From NCBI GenBank assembly GCA_963281255.1, contig OY725495.1:1426001-1490000 (forward strand): a stretch of 64,000 nucleotides of DNA, written 5' to 3'. The notes beneath the pieces are model-generated. The model had not been told where the DNA came from and did not search any database. It saw only the letters and a program-made list of their open reading frames with translations. How positions within the stretch are numbered: position 1 is the first letter of the stretch; each line of letters opens with the position of its first letter. A program made the translations under genes and the position numbers. Positions 5,056 to 62,620 of this stretch are shown here, in pieces. This DNA comes from Aphrocallistes beatrix. Taxonomy: Eukaryota; Porifera; Hexactinellida; Sceptrulophora; Aphrocallistidae.

Positions 5056-6384
5056 AGGGCGTTCAAAAAGTTTACATCATTTGTAAATATTAACTAAACC
5101 AACATATCTACTATCAATGTAATTACATAATGTGTTCAAAGTACTCTCCTTGATTATCGATGCAAAGTTTCAGACGTTCAATCCACTTCGAAAAAGTTTT
5201 TTTGTACTCATCTCTCTCGATACTATGTAGGTAGTGGTAAACGGCGGTTCCCAGGTCGGATCTTGTTGAAAAATGTTTCCCTCCAAGGTGTTTTTTCATC
5301 TCTGGAAATAGCCAGAAGTCGCATGGTGAAAGATCAGGTGAGTAGGGAGGATGTTCTAAAACTTCGAACCCGATTTCATCTATAGTTTGTCTGGTAAGCT
5401 TGGAGACATGGGGCCTGGCATTATCGTGGAGAAGCTTAATTCCACGAGCCCCAGTGCTTGGTCTTCTGGTTTTGTAAAAATCTTCAACCTCTCGTAGACA
5501 TTTTGATGAGTAAAAGTCACCATTCATCTTTCCGCCTTTAGGTACAGGTATTTGTGCTACTGGGCCATATGCATCAAAGAATATACTGTATAGCACCTTT
5601 TCCTCTCTGAAATCGGGCCGAGGTTTTGTAAGGGGGATCGAATTTTTTGGGAGCCATGCTTTGCTCCGCTCCTTTCGTTCAGGCTCTGAGAACTTTATCC
5701 ATGTTTCGTCCCCTGTAACTATTTCATATAGTCTTCGTGTATCACAATCTTCATACTTTTTGATGAGCTTTTTTGCACACGACACTCTTTGTTTTTTTTG
5801 GTCTTTTGTCAGCAATTTTGGTATCCACCTTGCTGAAACCTTCCGCAAATTCAGAACGTCATGCAGAATGTGATGAACTGCTCCCGTTGAGATGTCTACC
5901 GTCTCAGCAATCTCTATCACGCTTAAATGGGGATCATCATTTATCAATTCCTCTACAATAGCAATTATTCCGCTGGTAGACGCTGATTTTGGCCTACCTG
6001 ACCGAGCCTCATCTTCAATGTCCTCCCTTCCTTCTTTCACTTGACGAACCCATTGTCTAACGGTTGAATATGCAAGAGCATCATATGAATATACTTTGAC
6101 GAGCTTTTCATAAATATCGACTGGTTTTTCACCCAACAGCGTACACGCTTTGATGAATGCTCTTTGTTCATATTTGCTTGATGAATATTTTGAAGCCATT
6201 TAAAACTATCAGAAAGTTGACTAAGTTCAAGAATTTCAAATTTCAAAAGTATAATAGCTAGATTCGATTACTTTACAGCAATTTAAAGAGCATCGATAGC
6301 CCTATTTTCAGTTATCAATGGTTTCACATTACATGCATTACTTTTCTAGCAAGAAGCAAATGATGTAAACTTTTTGAACGCCCT
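5056..6384 (-). mobile_element. Complete mariner element
   Basis: The 1,329-bp element has perfect 28-bp terminal inverted repeats (5056-5083 and 6357-6384, starting AGGGCGTTCAAAAAG), flanked on both sides by TA. It contains one uninterrupted transposase gene. The matching position in the opposite fold-back arm (near 7940) lacks it, so it arrived after the palindrome formed. Confidence 0.93.
5123..6199 (-). CDS. mariner transposase, 358 aa
   Basis: A cut-and-paste transposase that would bind the element's 28-bp inverted repeats and integrate at TA. The N-terminal part (residues about 8-120) is the paired helix-turn-helix DNA-binding region typical of mariner, followed by the linker motif WIPKLL (126-131). 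The catalytic part carries D164 in TGDETW, D259 in HDNARPH and D294 in YSPDLSPCDFW. The last two are separated by 34 residues, the mariner DD34D signature. Length is close to the family norm of about 345 residues. The start is the first ATG after the right inverted repeat, and no intron is needed. No stop or frameshift is visible, so the protein could be active. Assignment is by motif recognition and the subfamily was not determined. Confidence 0.95.
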   Translation of the reverse strand: MASKYSSSKYEQRAFIKACTLLGEKPVDIYEKLVKVYSYDALAYSTVRQWVRQVKEGREDIEDEARSGRPKSASTSGIIAIVEELINDDPHLSVIEIAETVDISTGAVHHILHDVLNLRKVSARWIPKLLTKDQKKQRVSCAKKLIKKYEDCDTRRLYEIVTGDETWIKFSEPERKERSKAWLPKNSIPLTKPRPDFREEKVLYSIFFDAYGPVAQIPVPKGGKMNGDFYSSKCLREVEDFYKTRRPSTGARGIKLLHDNARPHVSKLTRQTIDEIGFEVLEHPPYSPDLSPCDFWLFPEMKKHLGGKHFSTRSDLGTAVYHYLHSIERDEYKKTFSKWIERLKLCIDNQGEYFEHIM

Positions 6385-32635: not shown

Positions 32636-33679
32636 TCAACTAAAGTTATGAATAGCAAACTGATCCCTGTAGTGTTTTGCTGCAATATGTCCAGTTTCCT
32701 CAAATGTAAACGGTTCATCCATAATGCTTGTATGATGGTCAATAGTGGAATCTTCCAACATGGGCTGCTTCCAAACAATAGCCATATTATGAAGAACAGC
32801 ACAGGCAAGAATAATAGTGCAGACTTTATCTGGAGCCATCCGGATCTCGCCGTGAAGGCAATGAAATCTTCTCTTCCATCTCCCAAAGGTTTGCTCGATC
32901 AATACACGCGTTTTTTTGTGGGAGTAATTATAATTCTCTTGGGCATTTGAAGCAGGTTGTCTGTATGGAGTTAATAAATAGGGTTTCAGCATATACCCAC
33001 TATCACCTAATATATGCTCACCAGCCAAGAAGTTATTCTCCACATATGTTCCGACCTGAGAGAGCTTCCAAATACGTGAATCATGAACTGAACCGGGGAA
33101 TCTTGCCAATACATCGGAAAATCTACCATCAGGTAGACAGATAGCTTGGACATTTATGGAGTGGTAGAAATGTCTGTTTACATAATCTGCCTCATTTTCA
33201 GAAGGCTTTTGAATACGAACATGCGTTCCATCTACAAGTCCAAGAACGCCGGGGAGGTTCGCGAGCTCATAAAACTGTGACTTAATCGTAGCCTTGTCAG
33301 CAGAACCGGGCATGCTAATGAACTTTGAATATATCGATTGCAGTCCAAGTGCAACGGCTCTGATGTACCTGCAAGCTGAGGGTTGGCTCACGTGAACTCC
33401 ATCACCATAAATAATCTGAAAAGTACCAGATGCAAAAAATTGTAGAGCAACACAAACTTGTGCGTGTGGATGTGCAGCATGAGATCTATCAGTTGTATTA
33501 AGATGATCAACTATGATCTCTGTAATCTTTAATATTGCTGACCTTGAGAAGCGAAAACGCTGCAACAATTCTAGATCATCATAGAATTCCAGAGGATCAC
33601 TACGATCTCTGAACACTCTCTCTCTCTCGAGTGACTCTTCCGAATCTTCTGCTAAAAACAATGGGATCATTCCTGCCAT
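32636..33679 (-). CDS. PIF/Harbinger transposase (HARBI1-like), 347 aa
   Basis: A nuclease of the Harbinger superfamily that cuts and joins the element ends at 3-bp targets, working with the Myb-like partner encoded downstream. The N-terminal half (1-130) holds a helical DNA-binding region with RFRFSRSAI and 'VCVALQFFASGTFQ'. The DDE nuclease follows: D150 in GLVDGTHVRI, D200 in SVHDSRIW (conserved but not assigned here), D226 in GDSGYMLKPYL and E262 in LIEQTFGRWKRRF, the order and spacing of HARBI1-type proteins. Length (347) is typical. The frame is open from ATG to stop with no intron. Homologous host proteins exist, but exact element ends and a target duplication show this is a transposon gene. 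It may be functional. Confidence 0.95.
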   Translation of the reverse strand: MAGMIPLFLAEDSEESLERERVFRDRSDPLEFYDDLELLQRFRFSRSAILKITEIIVDHLNTTDRSHAAHPHAQVCVALQFFASGTFQIIYGDGVHVSQPSACRYIRAVALGLQSIYSKFISMPGSADKATIKSQFYELANLPGVLGLVDGTHVRIQKPSENEADYVNRHFYHSINVQAICLPDGRFSDVLARFPGSVHDSRIWKLSQVGTYVENNFLAGEHILGDSGYMLKPYLLTPYRQPASNAQENYNYSHKKTRVLIEQTFGRWKRRFHCLHGEIRMAPDKVCTIILACAVLHNMAIVWKQPMLEDSTIDHHTSIMDEPFTFEETGHIAAKHYRDQFAIHNFS

Positions 33680-38587: not shown

Positions 38588-41500
38588 ATGCCAACCAAGT
38601 GCTCTGCTCCTAATTGTAATAGCTAATATTACCCACAAGACCCTTATGTTCCTGTTTTTAAGCTTCCTAACGATCCACCTGAATTGCGGCACAAATGGAT
38701 AAACGCACTTCACCGTGAGAACATCTCCCTCAAACATGTCTTCCTTTGCATCAAGCATTTCCGCGAAGAAGACGTAGAGCATGTATATAAAGTACAGAAT
38801 CCAGATGGCTCAGTTTCTGAAATTCCAAGAGGCCAGCCAAAGTTACGGAAAGACGCAGTTCCTTGCTTTTTACAAGACTGTCCTTCATACTACTCTGCTC
38901 CATCTTCCTCTCGTGGTCATCGATTTTCTTTCGAGTCTAAACAAGATGACCAATTTGCATTGGCCTTGCAACTTAGTCGTGTGTCAAAGATGGCAGAAGA
39001 AGCTAGATACCATGTTGAAACTCTAGAAGAACTAAAAGAAATGTTAGCATCACAAACTCTTCGTCCAAACTGGTTATTTTGGTTGTCAGCTGATGGTGAA
39101 GTTCATTTTATATCACTTTCGAAGTCACATCAAAACATATCAGTTCGGTCCTTTTTGACTGTCAGTTCCACACTAGGCGTGAAAGCATTTCACGAAGAAG
39201 AAAATATTAATCTTTCAGTGACGAAGATAAATGATATCAGACAAATCGGTATTTTACTCATGGAAATTGAAAACGTATCTACAATTCCTTCTTCATACAC
39301 TAATTCTGTTTACAATCATATTGCGAATGCCCGCCATCAAATCTCTAAAGCAATGATCAAACTTGAAGAATTTACCTCTAGTCCATTGGACTCATTAGAT
39401 GATTCTCCTATACTAGCTCGACTTCAGTTTATTACTTGTCAACTCGAAAACTCTATTCTACCAAAGAATCGAAGAAGATACAACATTATTACACAAGTTT
39501 TGGCATTGAAGTCCCATCTTATCTCTTCTAGTTGTTACAACCACCTGCAGTCTCTAGACTGTCTTTCTCTTCCTCACTACCATACACTTGAAAATCTTTA
39601 TTCTTCCTTTGGATTAGATTGCGAATACACCGCTTATCTGAATCAGGCAACTGTAAACTTTTCCTCTCAAGAGAAAAATGTTATTGTCCAAATGGATGAA
39701 ATACACGTAACCTCTGATGTTTCCTATCAGGGTGGAGAGATAGTAATTGGCTCTTGTCTTAACCCTGATGATCCTATCAAAACAGTTTTTGCCATAATGG
39801 TTTCTAGTTTGCACAAAAAATGGTCCACCATTGTACGTTTAGTCCCTCTTTCTACAACTAGTGCTAAAGATATCTATCCAATTATTGTGCAGGTAATAGA
39901 TGACGTCGAAAAATGCGGACTATCAGTTCAAGTATTATGCACTGATAACTATCCACTCAATGTTAGCATTTTCAAGTTATTCTCTCCTAATCAGAAAACT
40001 TTGCAAACTATAGTCCCCCATCCTACCTCTGAGAATAGACCTCTGATCCTTATGTTTGATTTTGTTCACATCTTAAAGACTATCCGCAATAATTGGTTAA
40101 ATCTAAAGAATGAAAATAAAGTGTTCATCTATCCTAGCATTGAAGACTTTTATCCTACTTACACTAACTTTCCTCTAACTATACAAAATGCCTCTTTTAA
40201 TGATATTCGCCTAATATACTACAAGTTGGAACAGAATAATATCGCCAAGACTGCTCCAACGTCTAACAACTAAAGCTTGTTGGCCATCTAATTTAGAGCG
40301 ACAAAATGTGAAGTTGGCCCTCCGGGGTTTCCACGAATCTACTGGTGCACCCTTCAAGATATATAATGAGTCCCATCCCGATAAGTTCATATACCAAACC
40401 TCTAATTTTATTGACACTGCTATTAAGATTTGGAAAATTTTCAATATCAATAGGCCAAACAAAGACATACGTTTCAACGATGAATACTCAAGAGTCAATA
40501 CAACTAGTGCTTAATGATCCAAGATTTGATCTATGTCATCGGATTGCGAACTGGATAGATGCATGGAGATCTCTTCCAGGAAAACAAGGCAAGTTGGGTC
40601 CACAAACATTTACTAGCTTCAAACATACATGTCTTGCCCTTCCACTCTTAGTCAATAGTTTAACCTCCCAGTGCGGATTTGCTTATGCACTAACTTTTTT
40701 CTTACAGACTGATCCCCTGGAGCATCATTTTAGACCAGTGTTTCTCAAACTAATTTAGCACACCGCCCCCTAATCACGATTTTAGTGTCGACACCGCCCC
40801 CTCCCCTTACTCATGATCCGTAAGCCATCAACAGTGTAATTATTGTATTAATTAGTCACGGGAAACCATTGACAGTGTGATTATTGTACTTTCTAGCTCT
40901 AACAACTACAGTGAATGTTGAAATTTGTTTCAAAGATTGACCATCTATATTCTGAAATACACATTTTTTTGAGGTTCAAATATCGTAGATGTATTGCTAA
41001 CAAAACACTTTATTAGCGCCCCCTTACATTATAGCGCCCCCCAACAACCTTTCAGCGCCCCATGGGGGGCTCTACGGCCCACTTTGAGAATCACTGTTTT
41101 AGACTGTATAGAATGATGTCTGGTTCAAATTATCATGTTTCTTATTCTCAAATCCTCGAAACTGAACGTCGACTTAAGATTTCCAGCATACTTAAATTAT
41201 TTTCACAGCAGCCCTCTAGCAAAGAAAGTAATTTACAAAACTTTATCAAGTCTTTTTCCTCCATTGAGCTAGATGATAATAGCACAGTTAACTTGGAACC
41301 TTTTCTACCCAAGCTTCAGGATATCTCTAGTATTACACTTGATAACCAAACCATACAATCTTTAGCTTTTATTGCAGGTTACTGTGTCCACCAGTATATC
41401 AAAAAATCTCAAAATTGCCCATGTTGTCGTGATTTCCAAACTATCGACAAAGAACTGTTATTTGATCCTGACGAAACAATAATTTATAGGCTAATAGATG

Positions 41501-41870
41501 TTATGGACCGAGGATCATTGAAGTGGCCATCGGATTCTGCCTTAAACTCAATCATTCTCGTTTGGCGAATTCTCATAACCCTGAAACAATGTGAAGATGT
41601 TTGGAGTCTGTTTGTCAATTTCAAACCAAAGAAGACCTTAATTGAAATTTCTATTCTATTCCTTGAAAACGACTCGAGTGAGCACTGGCGCAATAGATGT
41701 TTAGTTTGCAACACAGAAGGTTGGGACATTGCTCGTAAATTGCTTCTTGTTGCATCAAATTGTCTTATCTCCAATATGGTGAAGATAATGCGTACCTAGC
41801 CTCAAGAGCAGATAGTAGAAAATTAAAGAAAAAGTTAAATAGTGTCATGATATCATATAGACGGGAATGA
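38588..41870 (+). pseudogene. P-element (THAP9-like) transposase relic
   Basis: Remains of a P-superfamily transposase related to animal THAP9. The reading starts at ATG 38588 with the zinc-coordinating block CSAPNC of a THAP domain. A TAA at codon 13 breaks it, after which the domain resumes (LPNDPPELRHKW, then FLCIKHF). The long open frame 38684-40273 covers the rest of the THAP domain, a coiled-coil-like segment and the RNase-H core with VQMDEIHV and VLCTDNYPLN (acidic residues 338 and 421 of that frame) and a following DFVHILKTIRNNW block. A frameshift near 40253 moves the reading to 'LERQNVKLALRGFHES', and another near 40490 leads to 'PLEHHFR'. That exon is then cut by a 361-bp hAT MITE. 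Reading resumes at 41105 (LYRMMSG) to about 41870, with a final shift near 41790. Inactive as it stands. Confidence 0.85.
40736..41096. mobile_element. hAT MITE inside the P-element gene
   Basis: The ends are CAGTGTTTCTCAAACT and the complement of CAGTGATTCTCAAAGT. The 8-bp duplication TTTTAGAC (40728-40735 and 41097-41104) falls in codons for HFR-L. GC-rich CGCCCCC repeats lie near both ends. Removing it restores the flanking P-transposase frame. Confidence 0.9.
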
Positions 41871-44820: not shown

Positions 44821-45313
44821 TTAAATTGAACATATTTTCCTGATCCATTTGGCTAAATCATAGCCTACTGTATATAATGCCTGCCATCTACTTGGAAAAT
44901 CTGGACTAGGGATGTACTAGAGGACGATTATTATAATGAACCACAACTTTTAATGATGATTTTATCACTAGCTTAATCAATGAGAATATATTATGTGAAG
45001 TTGTTTCTCCTATATTCTCTGTCACAAATATTTAACCTAGCCTCCATAATCCTTCTCATCAGCAGATCACTTTCCATTTTAAGATGCAAGAACTCAGTAT
45101 AGACATTTGACCGACGTTTCGATTCCCGTTCTCCATCCAAAGGATCCTGTTGAAGGGGATTAGGGTTGCAAAATTCCCGGGAATTTTGGAAACTTTTCGG
45201 GAACATGAGGAATTTCAAAATGATCAAATTCTACATATAAATAGATAAACTCAAATTGATGAAGCATGATAATTAAAGAACACATTTGATTACATTTTTT
45301 ATTAACCTAAGTG

Positions 45314-46196
45314 GGGACGCTGCATTAGTTCGAATCTTAAGGTTGTCACTAGTTCGAATATCATAGGTTGTCATTAGTTCGACTCGGTTTTTGCTAAGGT
45401 TGTCATTAGTTCGACTCGATTTTGCTAAGGTTGTCATTAGTTCGACTCGATTTTGCTAAGGTTGTCATTAGTTCGACTCGATTTTGCTAGGGTTGTCGTT
45501 AGTTCGACTCGGTTTTGCTAAGGTTGTCATTAGTTCGACTCGATTTTGCTAGGGTTGTCATTAGTTCGACTCGATTTTATTGAGAGTAAACATTCATTAA
45601 CGGAAATATGGTTGCGGAGAAAATAATCGCAGAAAGTGAAAGTAGGCATTTTAAGTTTGAAACAGTGTCAAATTGACGGCGAAAGTGGTATTTTAATTTT
45701 GTGAGGTTTGGAAGCATAACAATGAGTAAATATCAATGAATTGATCATTTAGAACTAATGCCAACTCTCCCAAAATTCGAGTAAAACTAATAACAACCCT
45801 AGCAAAAACCGAGTCGAACTAATGACAACCCTAGCAAAACCGAGTCGAACTAACGACAACCCTAGCAAAATCGAGTCGAACTAATGACAACCCTAGCAAA
45901 AACCGAGTCGAACTAATGACAACCCTAGCAAAACCGAGTCGAACTAACGACAACCCTAGCAAAATCGAGTCGAACTAATGACAACCCTAGCAAAATCGAG
46001 TCGAACTAATGACAACCCTAGCAAAACCGAGTCGAACTAACGACAACCCTAGCAAAATCGAGTCGAACTAATGACAACCCTAGCAAAATCGAGTCGAACT
46101 AATGACAACCCTAGCAAAACCGAGTCGAACTAATGACAACCTATGATATTCGAACTAGTGACAACCTTTGAAATTCGAACTAATGCATGCACCTCA
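45314..46196. mobile_element. Fold-back of opposed minisatellite arrays (FB5)
   Basis: 883 bp flanked by the 8-bp duplication CCTAAGTG (45306-45313 and 46197-46204). The left arm (45346-45590) is a tandem array of about 30-bp units reading GGTTGTCATTAGTTCGACTC plus GATTTTGCTAA. The right arm (about 45765-46165) is a longer array of the complement. The 200-bp core between them (45590-45765) is unrelated and AT-rich. GCATTAGTTCGAA lies near both ends in opposite orientation. Confidence 0.82.
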
Positions 46197-46263
46197 CCTA
46201 AGTGACTATTATGGCATACTTTGGTATTGTCTACAAGTACAATCAACATTGCCATAGTTAAAG

Positions 46264-47119: not shown

Positions 47120-47950
47120 CAAGCACGCTTCGCTTGCTTGCGCTGCGCGGCTTACGGACACTGCGTGTCCGCAGAGTCGCCCTGCGGGCGCCTGGAATCA
47201 CTCAATCTAGCATATTTTGGAATTCTTTCCTTTATATAACTATTGTAAACAAAGGTCGACAAATAATTTCTCATATGGATCTGAAAATATGATATTCGAA
47301 ATCTACACCCCTGAAACCCCCATGTCAACCGTTTAAAGCAAGTTTCTGGCATATTTTTGAGATTTGTTTACTTTATGTATCTAATGTAAACAAAAGTAAA
47401 CAAATAATTTATCACATAAATCTGAAAATATTATATTCGAAATCCACACCCCTGAAAACCCCATGACAACCGTTGAAAGCAACTTTCTAGCATATTTTTT
47501 GAGATTTGTTTACTTTATGTATCTATTGTAAACAAAGGTAAACAAATAATTTATCATATAAATCTGAAAATATGATATTCGAAATCCACACCCCTGGAAA
47601 CCCCATGTCAGCCGTTGGAAGCTAGTCTCTAGCATTATTTTCAAAATTCATCAAATGATGTTTCTTGATGATATTTGCATCATATGTGAGATATATTAAT
47701 ATATACATTCTATTAAAATTTCAGCCTTTTATCACCTAAAATGGTTGAGTTATGGTCGAAAAACTGAAATTTCTAATTATAAAAAAGGTGGCAATGACGT
47801 CATAATTCCATGATGAGTCGGCATTTTCGTCTGAGCTCAGAACTTAGTGGAGCCATAGCCAGGACTCACACTTGCAAAAAATGAGCTCTCTGTGCCTAGC
47901 AGTTTCTCAATCAATTCGTTACAGATATATATAAATATATATATATATAT
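47120..47950 (-). mobile_element. Chimeric Helitron-like copy (B-type 3' end, A-type 5' half)
   Basis: The left end CAAGCACGCTTCGC with GGACACTGCGTGTCC resembles the Helitron-A 3' hairpin but continues into family-B sequence (47200-47640). From about 47660 the sequence is Helitron-A body in the same orientation (GATATATTAATATATAC, TGACGTCA near 47796). It ends in a TA run near 47950 without the terminal motif. Confidence 0.62.
47215..47645. repeat. Three tandem copies of a ~155-bp unit
   Basis: Each unit contains GTAAACAAA..AAACAAATAATTT, ATATTCGAAATC, CACCCCTG and CAACCGTT, then CTAGCAT. The third is followed by a divergent end. A single related unit is present at 53276-53405 in Helitron-B. 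Confidence 0.75.
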
Positions 47951-54929: not shown

Positions 54930-57279
54930 CACTGGTCAACCAGTAAATTTCTTCTTGAATGAGGGTGACATTTTCTAGACCAAAAAATTGTGCTGATTCT
55001 AAATATGCCTTTTTTTGTTTTTCACCTACACCTCAGAATTTTCAGTTTTGAATAATTTTTGATACATTTCATTACTATGAAAATTATACCATTAATATTT
55101 CATGGATACTATTATTATTTTGTTGTGATTAATTTTACAGGATTTTAAAACCACCATTTTTCAATCAATGCATCGCAAGTGTGAAAATGATCCTGACAAT
55201 TTTTGTTATATATGTGGTATCTACATAATGGGTAGTAGATTCAAGACAATAACTCCTTTAGTTATGGAACAATACTACCTGCATTTCGGTTGTAAAGTCA
55301 GAGACCTAGACAAACCATGGGCCCCTCACTATGCTTGTCACACCTGTTGTAATAACCTAATCAAATGGTCAAAGGGAAACTTAAAAGCTATGCCATTTGG
55401 TGTCCCAAAAGTATGGAGGGAACAAAGAAACCACTTAGATGACTGTTATTTTTGTTTGACAAAAGTAAATGGACATTCAATAAAGACAAAATCTAGGATT
55501 ATATACTCAAATTTGCCTTCAGCTTTGCGCCCTGTAGCACATGGATTAGAAATCCCTGTACCTAAATGTCCTATCGTATCTGAAGTCCACGAATTTATTG
55601 AGAATGAACCTGAAGATCAGTTGGATACATCTTTTGAGGTGCAAAGTGATGCCCCAAAGCTATTTTCACAAGAGGACTTGAATGATTTAGTCAGGGATCT
55701 TGTCCTGTCGAAGGAGTCCGCTATGCTTTTGGGTTCAAGACTTAAAGAAAGAAACCTTTTAGAAGCAAACACTATTTTACTGGTATAGGAGCAGAGAGCA
55801 AGAATTTGAGCCGTTCTTTTCAATGGACAACGACTTGGTTTATTGCAATGATATTAAAGGGCTGATCTTAACGATGGGAATGAACTATGATCCCAATGAG
55901 TGGAGACTCTTCATCGATTCATCTAAAAGGAGCCTCAAAGCGGTGCTCCTTTATATCGGAAACTCCATGTCCTCAATCCCAGTAGCCCATTCAGTTCTCC
56001 TTCAAGAGAATTATGTAACCATGAAACTACTCATAGAAAAACTGAAGTATGAAGAACATAAGTGGTTAATTTGTGGTTATCTAAAAGTTATTACTCTCCT
56101 ACTTGGTCAACAAGGAGGTTACACAAAAGATCCTTGCTTTCTATGCTTATGGGATAGCCGAGCGGATTCTCAACATTATTCAAGGCATGAATGGCCAACT
56201 AGAACTGAATTTATCCCTGGCAAGGATAATGTGAGATCAAATCCTCTTGTCGATCCCCATATGGTCTTTTATTGCCACCACTCCATATCAAACTTGGTCT
56301 AATGAAGAATTTAGTCAAAGCTCTAAATAGGGAAGGTGAGGCTTTTAGGTATCTCACTAAAAAATCTCCAGCAATAAGTGAAGCTAAGTTAAAAGCAGGG
56401 ATTTTTGTGGGACCTCAAATCCGTCAATTGCTTCGGGATCCTAAGTTTGAAGCATTACAGAATATCGTTGAGAGAAATGCCTGGACATCTTTTAAGAATG
56501 TCGTGGAAAACTTTTTAGGAAACAGGAAAGCGGAAAACTACAAAGAACTTGTTCAAACTATGCTTGCTAACTATAAATCTCTTGGCTGTAGAATGAGCAT
56601 TAAAATGCACTTTCTAGATTCGCATTTAGAATATTTTCCAAAAAATCTTGGTGCCCTAAGTGAGGAACAAGGTGAGCGGTTTCATCAGGACATTTGTTAA
56701 ATGGAGAGAAGATACCAAGGTAGATGGAATTCAAAGATGATGGGAGACTATTGCTGGTGTTTAATAAGGGACAGCAACACAGTCCACAATCGAATGTCAA
56801 GAAAATGGCGTTTCATTCCATATGTTCCTTGCTAAAGCTGTTAGATATTATTTATTTATCATTTACATTATCCAAACCATATAGGAATAGTTTGTTTACC
56901 TATATATTCTAATGTCTGATGAATTCAATCATGATTATGATATCCTTCATCTAAATTGATATAGGAAAGGAATTAATGACAAGAATATTGTGTTAACCAC
57001 CATAAAATACTATATTAACGATTAGTGAAACCTACTATTATTGTTATATGGGTTCGAATAATATACGCTTGGATCGTTCTTTATGTTTGGTAGAATTTGG
57101 AAAATGTATTTTTATCCTTGATTTTGCGGTTAAAGTAAATTTTCAAAATTGATTTTTGAAAAATCTAGACGTGTAGCTAACAAATGAATGCCATATTTGA
57201 AATCAGCAAAAGAAATTGGCTAAGAAAAGTTTAGATACATCAAAGAAGAAATTCCAATTTGAAAAAACGTTGTTCAGTG
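54930..57279 (+). mobile_element. DNA transposon of uncertain superfamily
   Basis: The ends are CACTGGTCAAC and GTTGTTCAGTG (imperfect inverted repeat), with AATTAT on both sides (54923-54928 and 57280-57285). The flanks join to the uninterrupted TTAA-S sequence TTTCAATTATTAATG, so this is a bounded insertion of about 2.35 kb. It carries one broken gene on the plus strand. Confidence 0.7.
55168..56850 (+). pseudogene. Broken transposase-like gene of a widespread animal repeat family
   Basis: The protein belongs to a multicopy family I recognise from arthropod, cnidarian and fish genomes, beginning MHRKCxNDP and usually annotated as uncharacterised. The N-terminus has paired cysteines (CYICG, then HYACHTCCNNL, then CYFC) suggesting zinc-binding fingers, followed by 'LPSALRPVAHGLEIPVP'. 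A second frame (55823-56302) has 'EWRLFIDSSKRSLKAVLL' and 'DPCFLCLWDSRAD'. A third (56272-56700) has PPLHIKLGLMKN and 'GERFHQDI'. Frameshifts near 55770 and 56270 separate them, and a TAA at 56698-56700 cuts before MERRYQGRW. The family's GDLK motif, a likely catalytic Asp, reads GYLK here (about 56088). The RNase-H-type role is inference from motif order. The start is the ATG opening the conserved block. Confidence 0.75.
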
Positions 57280-60416: not shown

Positions 60417-61411
60417 TATTGATATTTTCTTGGGATTCCTTACCGGGAATGGACTACTCAAAGTTGTTAATTTAATGAATAAACATTGTCATTGAAGCTA
60501 CAATTCTAAAAATGAACTTTCATTAAGTATTGCAAGGTCTCTGGCTTTGACACAGTATTTATGAAATGAGCGGCTTCAAAATTTCGTAGATCTAGAACAT
60601 CTTTCTCTTTCAGCATTTTCTTTCTTTTGGAAAAAACATCCCTTGTATCGTGGGTCTAGTAGGGTTTCAAATGTATAGAGATCGCTTGTTTCAATATTGA
60701 CAAAATGGGCTCTGGTATCGCCACCCTCTAAATACTTGTGAATGTTTTCTAATAATTTACTCTTCAACGTTCCTATTCCAAATTCGTGTACCTGTTCGAG
60801 CTCCATTTTCATCCGTTTAGTGATAGGAATAATATCTGAAATTGAAGCTTGGTCACCTTCAACAGTTAAAGTAGCAGCGAAAATGGGTTTAAGGAGGTTC
60901 ATTACTTTCGGGATAAGATCCCAGTCAGTGGGGGTCAATTTACAATCTGTGGAGATATTTAGTTCAGCATCATCTTCAGCGGCTCTAATGGCGAGTTTTA
61001 GTTTGAAAGCCCTTTCAAACATCAAGTAGTCACTATTCCATCTGGTTTCCACACAAAGAATCAAAGATTTTTCAGAATTCCTACTGGATTTTTCTTACGA
61101 TAGCATTTGCTTTTGGTTTTCGGAGTTTTTTGACTATTTTTTTGAGGCGTTGTCTCATCAGCTTCACTCCACTTTGCTCTAATACCGCATGTTTCACAAT
61201 AAGATGGAGGATGTAACACATTCAACTAACTGACTGTTGGTTTGCAATTTCAGAGCCTTTCACTAGGTTAGCTGCATTGTCTCTAACAAGGCAATGGACA
61301 TTTTGCAGACACCAGCTTTTTATAATTTCTGACAAAACCATAGCGATGCTTTCTCCAGTATGTGCGCTGTCGTAGGGCATACATCGTAGAATTGCTATCT
61401 TCCTCTGCCTA

Positions 61412-61445
61412 TCCTTACTATTAAAACTCGATTAATGTATATTTA

Positions 61446-61480
<35 letters not shown>

Positions 61481-61974
61481 CTGTAACGAATTGATTGAAG
61501 AAACTGCCAGTCCCAGAAAGCTGATTTTTGGCATGTGGGAGTTTTTTTGGCTATGGCTCCAGTAAGTTCTGAGCTCAGAGCAAAATGTGGACTCATCATG
61601 GAATTATGACGTCATTGTCACATTTTTAAAAGTTAAGCAATACAGTTATTCGAGCATAACTCAGCCATTATAGGAGATAGAAGGCTGAAATTTTAATAGA
61701 ATCTGTATACTAACATACCTCACATATGATGCAACGATCATCAAAAAATGATGGCTCATCACTTTGTTATGACGTCATCATGAGTCATCAAAATTTTAAA
61801 AATTGATAAATTTGGTGCTTTTTCGTGCGATATAGATTATAACAGTAGGACAGACGTTTTAGAGATGTTATCTCCCTTATAAATAACCAATGTGACCCCA
61901 GGCGACCGAAGGGAGCCTCCGGCGGACACAAAGTGTCCGCCAGCCGCGCAGCGGAAGCAAGCGAAGCGCGCTTG
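61412..61974 (+). mobile_element. Helitron-A, complete copy inside a hAT gene
   Basis: TCCTTACTATTAAAAC to CGCGCTTG, flanked by CCTA and TTAACA, with a long TA run after the 5' end (61451-61480). It contains TGACGTCA near 61609 and 61771. It interrupts the hAT coding sequence between the two catalytic blocks. Confidence 0.83.
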
Positions 61975-62620
61975 TTAACATTAATATAGTAGTGTATGGT
62001 ATAACTAATAAAAGTTCGTTGTCCTTTGCTAGACCAAATATCTGTTGTTATCGAATATACAGCAACATCATTTTCATCGAGAGACTGTTTTATCTTGTAT
62101 TGTACTTGTCTATTCAAGTTGGGGATCAGTTTTTGTCTATTTTTTTTTTCTGATGGAACAAAAAACCTTTTATTTAAATGAGAAATCATTTTCTGGAACT
62201 GATCATTGCTAACCGTTGAATATGGCAATAAACCGTCACACAGCCACTGTACCAATAGTTTTTGACCCAAAAATATGTTCAGGTCTATCTAAATTCCATC
62301 TAGTGGAACGGTCATTAGTTTCTGGTGACTTCAATTGTATTGTAGAGAGTGAGTACACCTTTTTTATGCTCTTTTTCAACTATCTTTGCTTGTTTGTCGC
62401 AATTTGCTCATCTCTGCACTATCATAGTCTATTTTGTGCCAATTTTGTAAATGAATCCAAAGAGCTATAGTCGAGAAGCCTTTTCTCTGAGCTCCATCTT
62501 TTCCACGGACCTTGTTATTTTTGCAATCGTCAGCCTTACAAATAGCAATAGCTTGATTATTAGGATCCACAGTGAAATAGGACCATACACTCGATCTGGG
62601 ACGCTTACTCATGATCAATT

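Follow-up and report, generated by a model that had tools for sequence, protein, structure and literature searches.

The window analysed here, a stretch of 64,000 nucleotides from the hexactinellid sponge Aphrocallistes beatrix (contig OY725495.1), contains an 883-bp element that is a non-autonomous foldback DNA transposon (Table 1). Its ends, GGGGACGCTGCATTAG...CTAATGCATGCACCTC, were fixed by comparison of copies. From each end, the arm architecture comprises two outer steps of 24-25 bp followed by units of 31/32 bp, and the two arms face each other across a core. TRF reports 6.9 copies of a 31-bp unit in the left inner array (95% match) and 12.5 copies in the right one (92% match), together with the 24/25-bp zones at 45323-45382 and 46125-46185, and complementarity between the two arms reaches 98% over 182 nt. 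The opposed tandem arrays of unequal copy number that a first-pass annotation had described are thus present, while its 30-bp unit has to be corrected to 31/32 bp for the inner units and to 24-25 bp for the two outer steps. The flanking 8-bp duplication that it had called is also there, but its reading, CCTAAGTG, is shifted by one base, and the borders defined by the copies give ACCTAAGT. The flanks of the element carry a 9-bp direct repeat, ACCTAAGTG, in which one terminal G makes the duplication call ambiguous.

Table 1 The foldback element, its parts and neighbouring features (positions in the window)
Feature	Positions	Strand	Remarks
Foldback element	45313..46195		883 bp
Left target-site duplication ACCTAAGT	45305..45312		present once at each of three paralogous unfilled sites
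Left terminus GGGGACGCTGCATTAGTTCGAA and outer arm zone	45313..45391	+	box spacing 24 and 25 bp
Left inner array	45365..45578	+	about 7 units of 31/32 bp
Core	45579..45751		no tandem units
Right inner array	45752..46141	-	about 12.5 units of 31/32 bp, opposite orientation
Right outer arm zone and right terminus CTAATGCATGCACCTC	46125..46195	-	boxes 25 bp apart
Right target-site duplication ACCTAAGT	46196..46203
Tandem repeat of 142 bp	47206..47641		3.1 copies
P-type transposase remains	38627..41799	+	two ORFs joined by eye
First ORF of the P-type remains	38627..40270	+	THAP and TNP-like RNase H domains
Second ORF of the P-type remains	41035..41799	+	no Pfam match
Cysteine-rich ORFs	55129..56700	+	three overlapping ORFs

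Several other features were observed in the window. Remains of a P-type transposase lie on the forward strand, and three ORFs on the reverse strand (5123-6199, 32636-33679 and 60576-62288) are ones that we take to resemble mariner, Harbinger and hAT transposases; a scan of one hAT-like piece found no Pfam match. The cysteine-rich protein encoded by the three overlapping ORFs, possibly an old mobile gene, had no Pfam match in the two pieces scanned. Elsewhere in the assembly, the mitochondrial COX1 (L050, C28:3140-4480) uses the invertebrate code, with TGA=W, AGA=S and AAA=K, and contains no TGG, AGG or AAG codons.

Insertion sites, copies and arm variation

The flanks of the element were joined at one copy of the duplication and used as a query against the genome. 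This retrieved three unfilled sites that span the junction: C16:3030316-3030633 (95% over query 11-319), C6:1718999-1719297 (94% over query 17-319) and C2:6716298-6716523 (98% over query 94-319). Once aligned, each of these loci reads TTAACCTAAGTGACTATTATGG, with one copy of the site (a single ACCTAAGTG), and the C6 locus lacks the five bases immediately upstream of it.

The search for borders covered 35 fetched loci (L015 to L049) and found both ends in 28 of them, giving 31 rows for 29 distinct elements, as L045 and L046 each give two rows because their ends are nearly symmetric. No border pair was found in L016, L024, L031, L044, L047, L048 or L049. With at most one mismatch allowed, a duplication is present at the fixed borders in 22 of the 29 elements (8 bp in 17, 9 bp in 5), whereas mismatched left and right flank pairs used as a control gave 2/812 at 8 bp and 0/812 at 9 bp, or 3/930 at 8 bp with the doubled rows included. 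A lack of consistent boundaries or duplications in other copies, which the first-pass annotation had named as the mark of a local satellite expansion, is not what the 35 fetched loci show, and the examination of flanks that it recommended yields those 22 duplicated sites. The seven elements without a clean duplication are L015, L017, L018, L027, L033, L035 and L041; in L035 a TGTTAAAC duplication with a G run as filler is visible by eye. L016, which was located via other anchors, measures 3494 bp including a 200-N gap, and the target duplication is absent at both long copies, L015 and L016. A strong target preference was not seen in the 16 tallied 8-bp duplications, whose A+T content is 70% against 66% in the window.

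Two copies deserve separate mention. L019 has a 9-bp duplication, ATTGTAAAC, and its unfilled site is the 142-bp repeat unit found near 47.5 kb of the window, so that the same tandem repeat hosts a foldback copy elsewhere. In L018, inspection by eye finds GTTTCCAG on both sides and 8 extra bases beside one end, as if the donor flank had moved along.

At the scale of the genome (100.5 Mb), a 20-mer of the repeat unit occurs 105 times, 44 forward and 61 reverse, in dispersed copies, and the same 20-mer read backwards does not occur at all; the search for the unit suggested at first pass reveals a family. The left 87-bp end has 79 genome matches, some of which are partial matches inside arrays, and five places, including the window, match it at 100%. 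Copies with the same ends are dispersed over many contigs. A 183-bp core query gave at least 40 genome matches including the window, at 75-100% identity and some of them partial (40 of 96 candidates scored). This core is 100% identical in the window and three other copies, and 98.9-99.5% identical in three further ones; because the cores of these six other copies are so close to that of the window, at 98.9-100%, we consider that the window subfamily moved recently. The cores of other subfamilies share 75-95% identity with it, mostly 90-95%.

Variation of the arms was followed in ten copies, taken from the window subfamily and those closest to it (L015, L017-L023, L025 and L026), to which unit counts were restricted, the box pattern being unsuited to other subfamilies. 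A box, CATTAGTTCGA, is common to the terminus and to the array units. Box spacings in the ten copies are 24-25 bp twice from each end and then 31/32 bp, except at one end of L015, where a single box departs from this spacing. The number of boxes per arm ranges from 3 to 13, which is the variation in array length that the earlier reading had asked to be checked. The right arm in the window shares its first four unit types with the right arm of L023 and then extends the series, consistent with recent expansion. A 93-bp higher-order repeat in that arm, hinted at by the list of units, was discarded, as a plain shift comparison gave it no support. In the three other subfamilies written out (L029, L030 and L046), the unit spacers differ around a common CATTAGT box.

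Deviations in the box were 1/912 against 92/988, which is weak evidence of its conservation, 8 of the 12 box positions being imposed by the search pattern; the four positions free of it show 0/304 deviations. At 6 of 8 ends, the arrays of the same family give the best match to the terminal 28 bp; the ends of L048 are identical to each other. For the ends of the window element, the terminal box compared on its own array and on that of the sister family L052 gives 12 versus 12 (a tie) and 11 versus 13 (worse). The arms of one element are closer to each other than to the arms of other copies, with 1.64 versus 2.11 edits per unit over 9 copies (permutation p 0.002) and 1.48 versus 1.83 in the 7 copies that share the core (p 0.028). 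This similarity can be explained in part by subfamily history, and arm homogenisation is thus only one reading of it.

Coding copies with related ends

Among the relatives, L015 has 2730 bp between its borders, and its ends match those of the window element at 96% over 84 bp and at 93% over query 5-89. Its 432-aa ORF contains a MULE domain (PF10551, 39.6 bits for a cut-off of 27.6) and a FLYWCH match under the cut-off (20.7 bits versus 23.6). An overlapping 140-aa ORF in another frame encodes a RING finger (43.5 bits, cut-off 27), whose best-scoring solved relatives are CGRRF1, MGRN1 and IAP-type RINGs. In L016 these parts recur, but their frames are more interrupted, with MULE at 38.3 bits (cut-off 27.6) and FLYWCH at 21.2 bits, under its cut-off of 23.6. 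Inspection by eye shows L021 to be a shorter copy that has interior sequence in common with L015, and L017 a shorter one that keeps the gene start and the RING part. An element bearing a transposase, which the first-pass annotation had suggested looking for, does exist in L015, with near-identical ends and a MULE ORF, but it is interrupted. No intact transposase copy with ends of the window type was found among the loci examined, L015, L016 and L047 all being interrupted; in L047 the interruption consists, by eye, of ORFs resembling the P-type element of the window. Searches for the core of the window copy in L015, L016, L017 and L021 gave no match, and the window copy is therefore no simple internal deletion of them. 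The origin of the 183-bp core was searched for and not found.

Two of three more divergent families have uninterrupted frames. Identity to the L015 protein is 51% for L052, 37% for L048 and 35% for L051. L048 has one uninterrupted ORF of 535 aa in which MULE (38.8 bits) and RING (39.2 bits) both pass the cut-off, and L051 one uninterrupted ORF of 545 aa in which both also pass (29.1 and 52.5 bits), with FLYWCH under its cut-off (21.5 bits versus 23.6). In L052, the MULE and RING parts, both over cut-off, share a frame with one stop codon between them. The Pfam scan reported no FLYWCH in L048 or L052; an N-terminal FLYWCH finger together with a MULE domain is the mark of Phantom-type MULEs. Candidate D, D and E positions for the catalytic triad were located by eye in an alignment. 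These three families are flanked by opposed tandem arrays, of about 20-26 bp for L048 and 25 bp for both L051 and L052, and by exact 8-bp duplications: ATTTAAAC for L052, GTAGTATT for L048 and GCCAAGTG for L051.

A genome search with the L015 protein gave at least 106 matches, merged into at least 80 loci. In at least 38 of these 80 loci, a RING match on the transposase strand follows within 1 kb; among the matches listed, none lies on the wrong side or strand, and 42 of the 80 loci have no RING. Between L015 and L017, the 348-nt stretch that holds the RING shows 15 synonymous and 12 non-synonymous changes (dN 0.045, dS 0.237), and the resulting ratio of 0.19 is as would be expected under purifying selection. 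The comparison of L015 with L016 over this stretch (0 synonymous and 2 non-synonymous changes) is too close to inform, and those of L015 or L017 with L052 were left out, dS being saturated. A zinc-ligand pattern matched 0 of 6 RING pieces; it is too strict for the spacing here, and Pfam does detect the RING.

Classification and comparison with known elements

We conclude, with a probability of about 0.92, that the element inserted recently and is a non-autonomous cut-and-paste transposon belonging to the Mutator (MULE) superfamily, with arms of the foldback type, for which a relative would supply a box-recognising transposase in trans. PF10551 is present in copies with matching ends (L015 and L016); duplications of 8 or 9 bp occur in 22 of 29 elements, along with unfilled sites, and 8-11 bp is usual for the superfamily (PMC6446971); and the long inverted repeats are built of tandem units whose number differs from arm to arm and from copy to copy. 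The transposase from a relative of the L015 type would recognise the putative box CATTAGTTCGA in the terminus and array units, pair the two ends, excise the element and reinsert it through a staggered cut of 8-9 bp. The arrays would be amplified copies of the terminal recognition box, gained or lost through unequal exchange or slippage. Both the mobilisation and the function of the RING are what we infer.

The source of the transposase is where another reading retains some weight. The element could be a foldback MULE mobilised by another MULE of the genome, where at least 121 MULE-domain matches were obtained at E <= 0.001 (8 of those listed under the curated cut-off), the L015-type copies being mere relatives with similar ends. 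The core, common to subfamilies with differing arms and not found in L015 or L016, would agree with this; yet the L015 ends, at 93-96%, are closer than those of L048, L051 and L052, and we regard this scenario as rather unlikely.

Duplications of 8 bp are found in hAT elements too, and on this length the first-pass annotation had leaned towards a hAT-like or P-like origin. A P-superfamily or hAT element with convergent foldback arms would have a precedent in Galileo, a P-type element with such arms (PMC3573991), and the window has, not far from the element, an ORF that encodes THAP and TNP-like RNase H domains. However, the ORF between matching ends is of the MULE type, which assigns the group to Mutator; Pfam detected no P-type or hAT domain in the L015 and L016 ORFs, no copy with these ends bearing a P or hAT transposase was seen among the loci examined, and L047 looks, by eye, like a family copy interrupted by P-like ORFs, that is, two separate elements. 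With its MULE domain, the family makes a hAT or P origin very improbable, and we rejected it. A local satellite or minisatellite expansion with inverted duplication and no transposon would account for long tandem arrays of variable copy number, but deserves practically no credence given the same fixed ends on many contigs, the target duplications in 22 of 29 elements and the unfilled sites.

The idea of a mobile fold-back in the style of FB or Galileo in another lineage is thus supported by fixed borders, duplications, unfilled sites, arm variation and a transposase-bearing relative. FB/NOF of Drosophila also has foldback arms of tandem repeats in unequal copy number. The same holds for Drosophila Galileo, which is however P-type (PMC3573991).

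Within Mutator, Tm1 of Meloidogyne (Mutator/Foldback, Phantom-like; PMC3169594) resembles the present group: its composite arms vary in their number of tandem units, its terminal motifs are asymmetric, its duplications measure 8-10 bp, and it has a MULE transposase and many short non-autonomous copies. It differs in its units of 13-15 bp, against 31/25 here, and in having 9 bp as its commonest duplication; FLYWCH and MULE are the only domains described for its transposase, and the main text of that paper does not contain 'ring'. The MULEs of Aedes aegypti (PMC5225508), including Muta1, which has been called a Foldback element of type 2 and is mobile in yeast, have 8-9 bp duplications and, in 10 of 12 long-TIR families, subterminal tandem repeats. 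Their repeats measure only 9-15 bp (12 bp within a 145-bp TIR for Muta1), FLYWCH is clear in 13 of 14 families, and the main text is again free of 'ring'. The Tm1 and Muta1 literature (PMC3169594, PMC5225508) had therefore already described foldback MULEs that combine tandem arms with duplications of 8-10 bp.

A RING ORF beside a MULE is likewise known, from the Ghost clade of aphids, spiders and cnidarians (PMC6446971), in which a MULE transposase ORF and a 420-bp RING zinc-finger ORF belong to the same element; our search of the literature found no other paper combining MULE, transposase, RING finger and FLYWCH. Ghost, which we liken to our families by description, has two ORFs, whereas two intact ORFs here include the RING in frame; TIRs and TSDs were not found in its Myzus cerasi element, whereas arms and duplications are clear here, and a TIR of 177 bp is tabulated in that paper for one cnidarian sub-group. 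The same source gives duplications similar to ours for Phantom (8-10 bp) and Rehavkus (9 bp), and notes a minisatellite for aphid Phantom and Rehavkus, described on one side only, as against both arms here. The fingers it lists are FLYWCH or SWIM for Phantom and PHD for Rehavkus, with RING not among them. In the papers searched, which included few from subscription journals and neither Repbase nor the first description of Phantom, an in-frame RING in divergent foldback MULE families appears to be new.

We propose that the RING has ligase activity. A distinct foldback MULE group whose transposase is also an E3 ubiquitin ligase is a tentative possibility, in which the MULE catalytic part and a RING under purifying selection would form one protein. 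The targets of such a ligase might be host factors of repair or silencing, or it might keep the transposase itself in check, and Ghost might be a member of this group in which the frame is broken and the array-type arms went unrecognised.

Altogether, our work gives a full picture of a foldback Mutator group, with its borders, unfilled sites, arm variation and transposase, in which the arm units look like terminal recognition boxes that have been amplified. With the in-frame RING comes the question of a transposase that uses ubiquitin ligation, and this picture may also account for the lack of reported ends in the most complete Ghost element.
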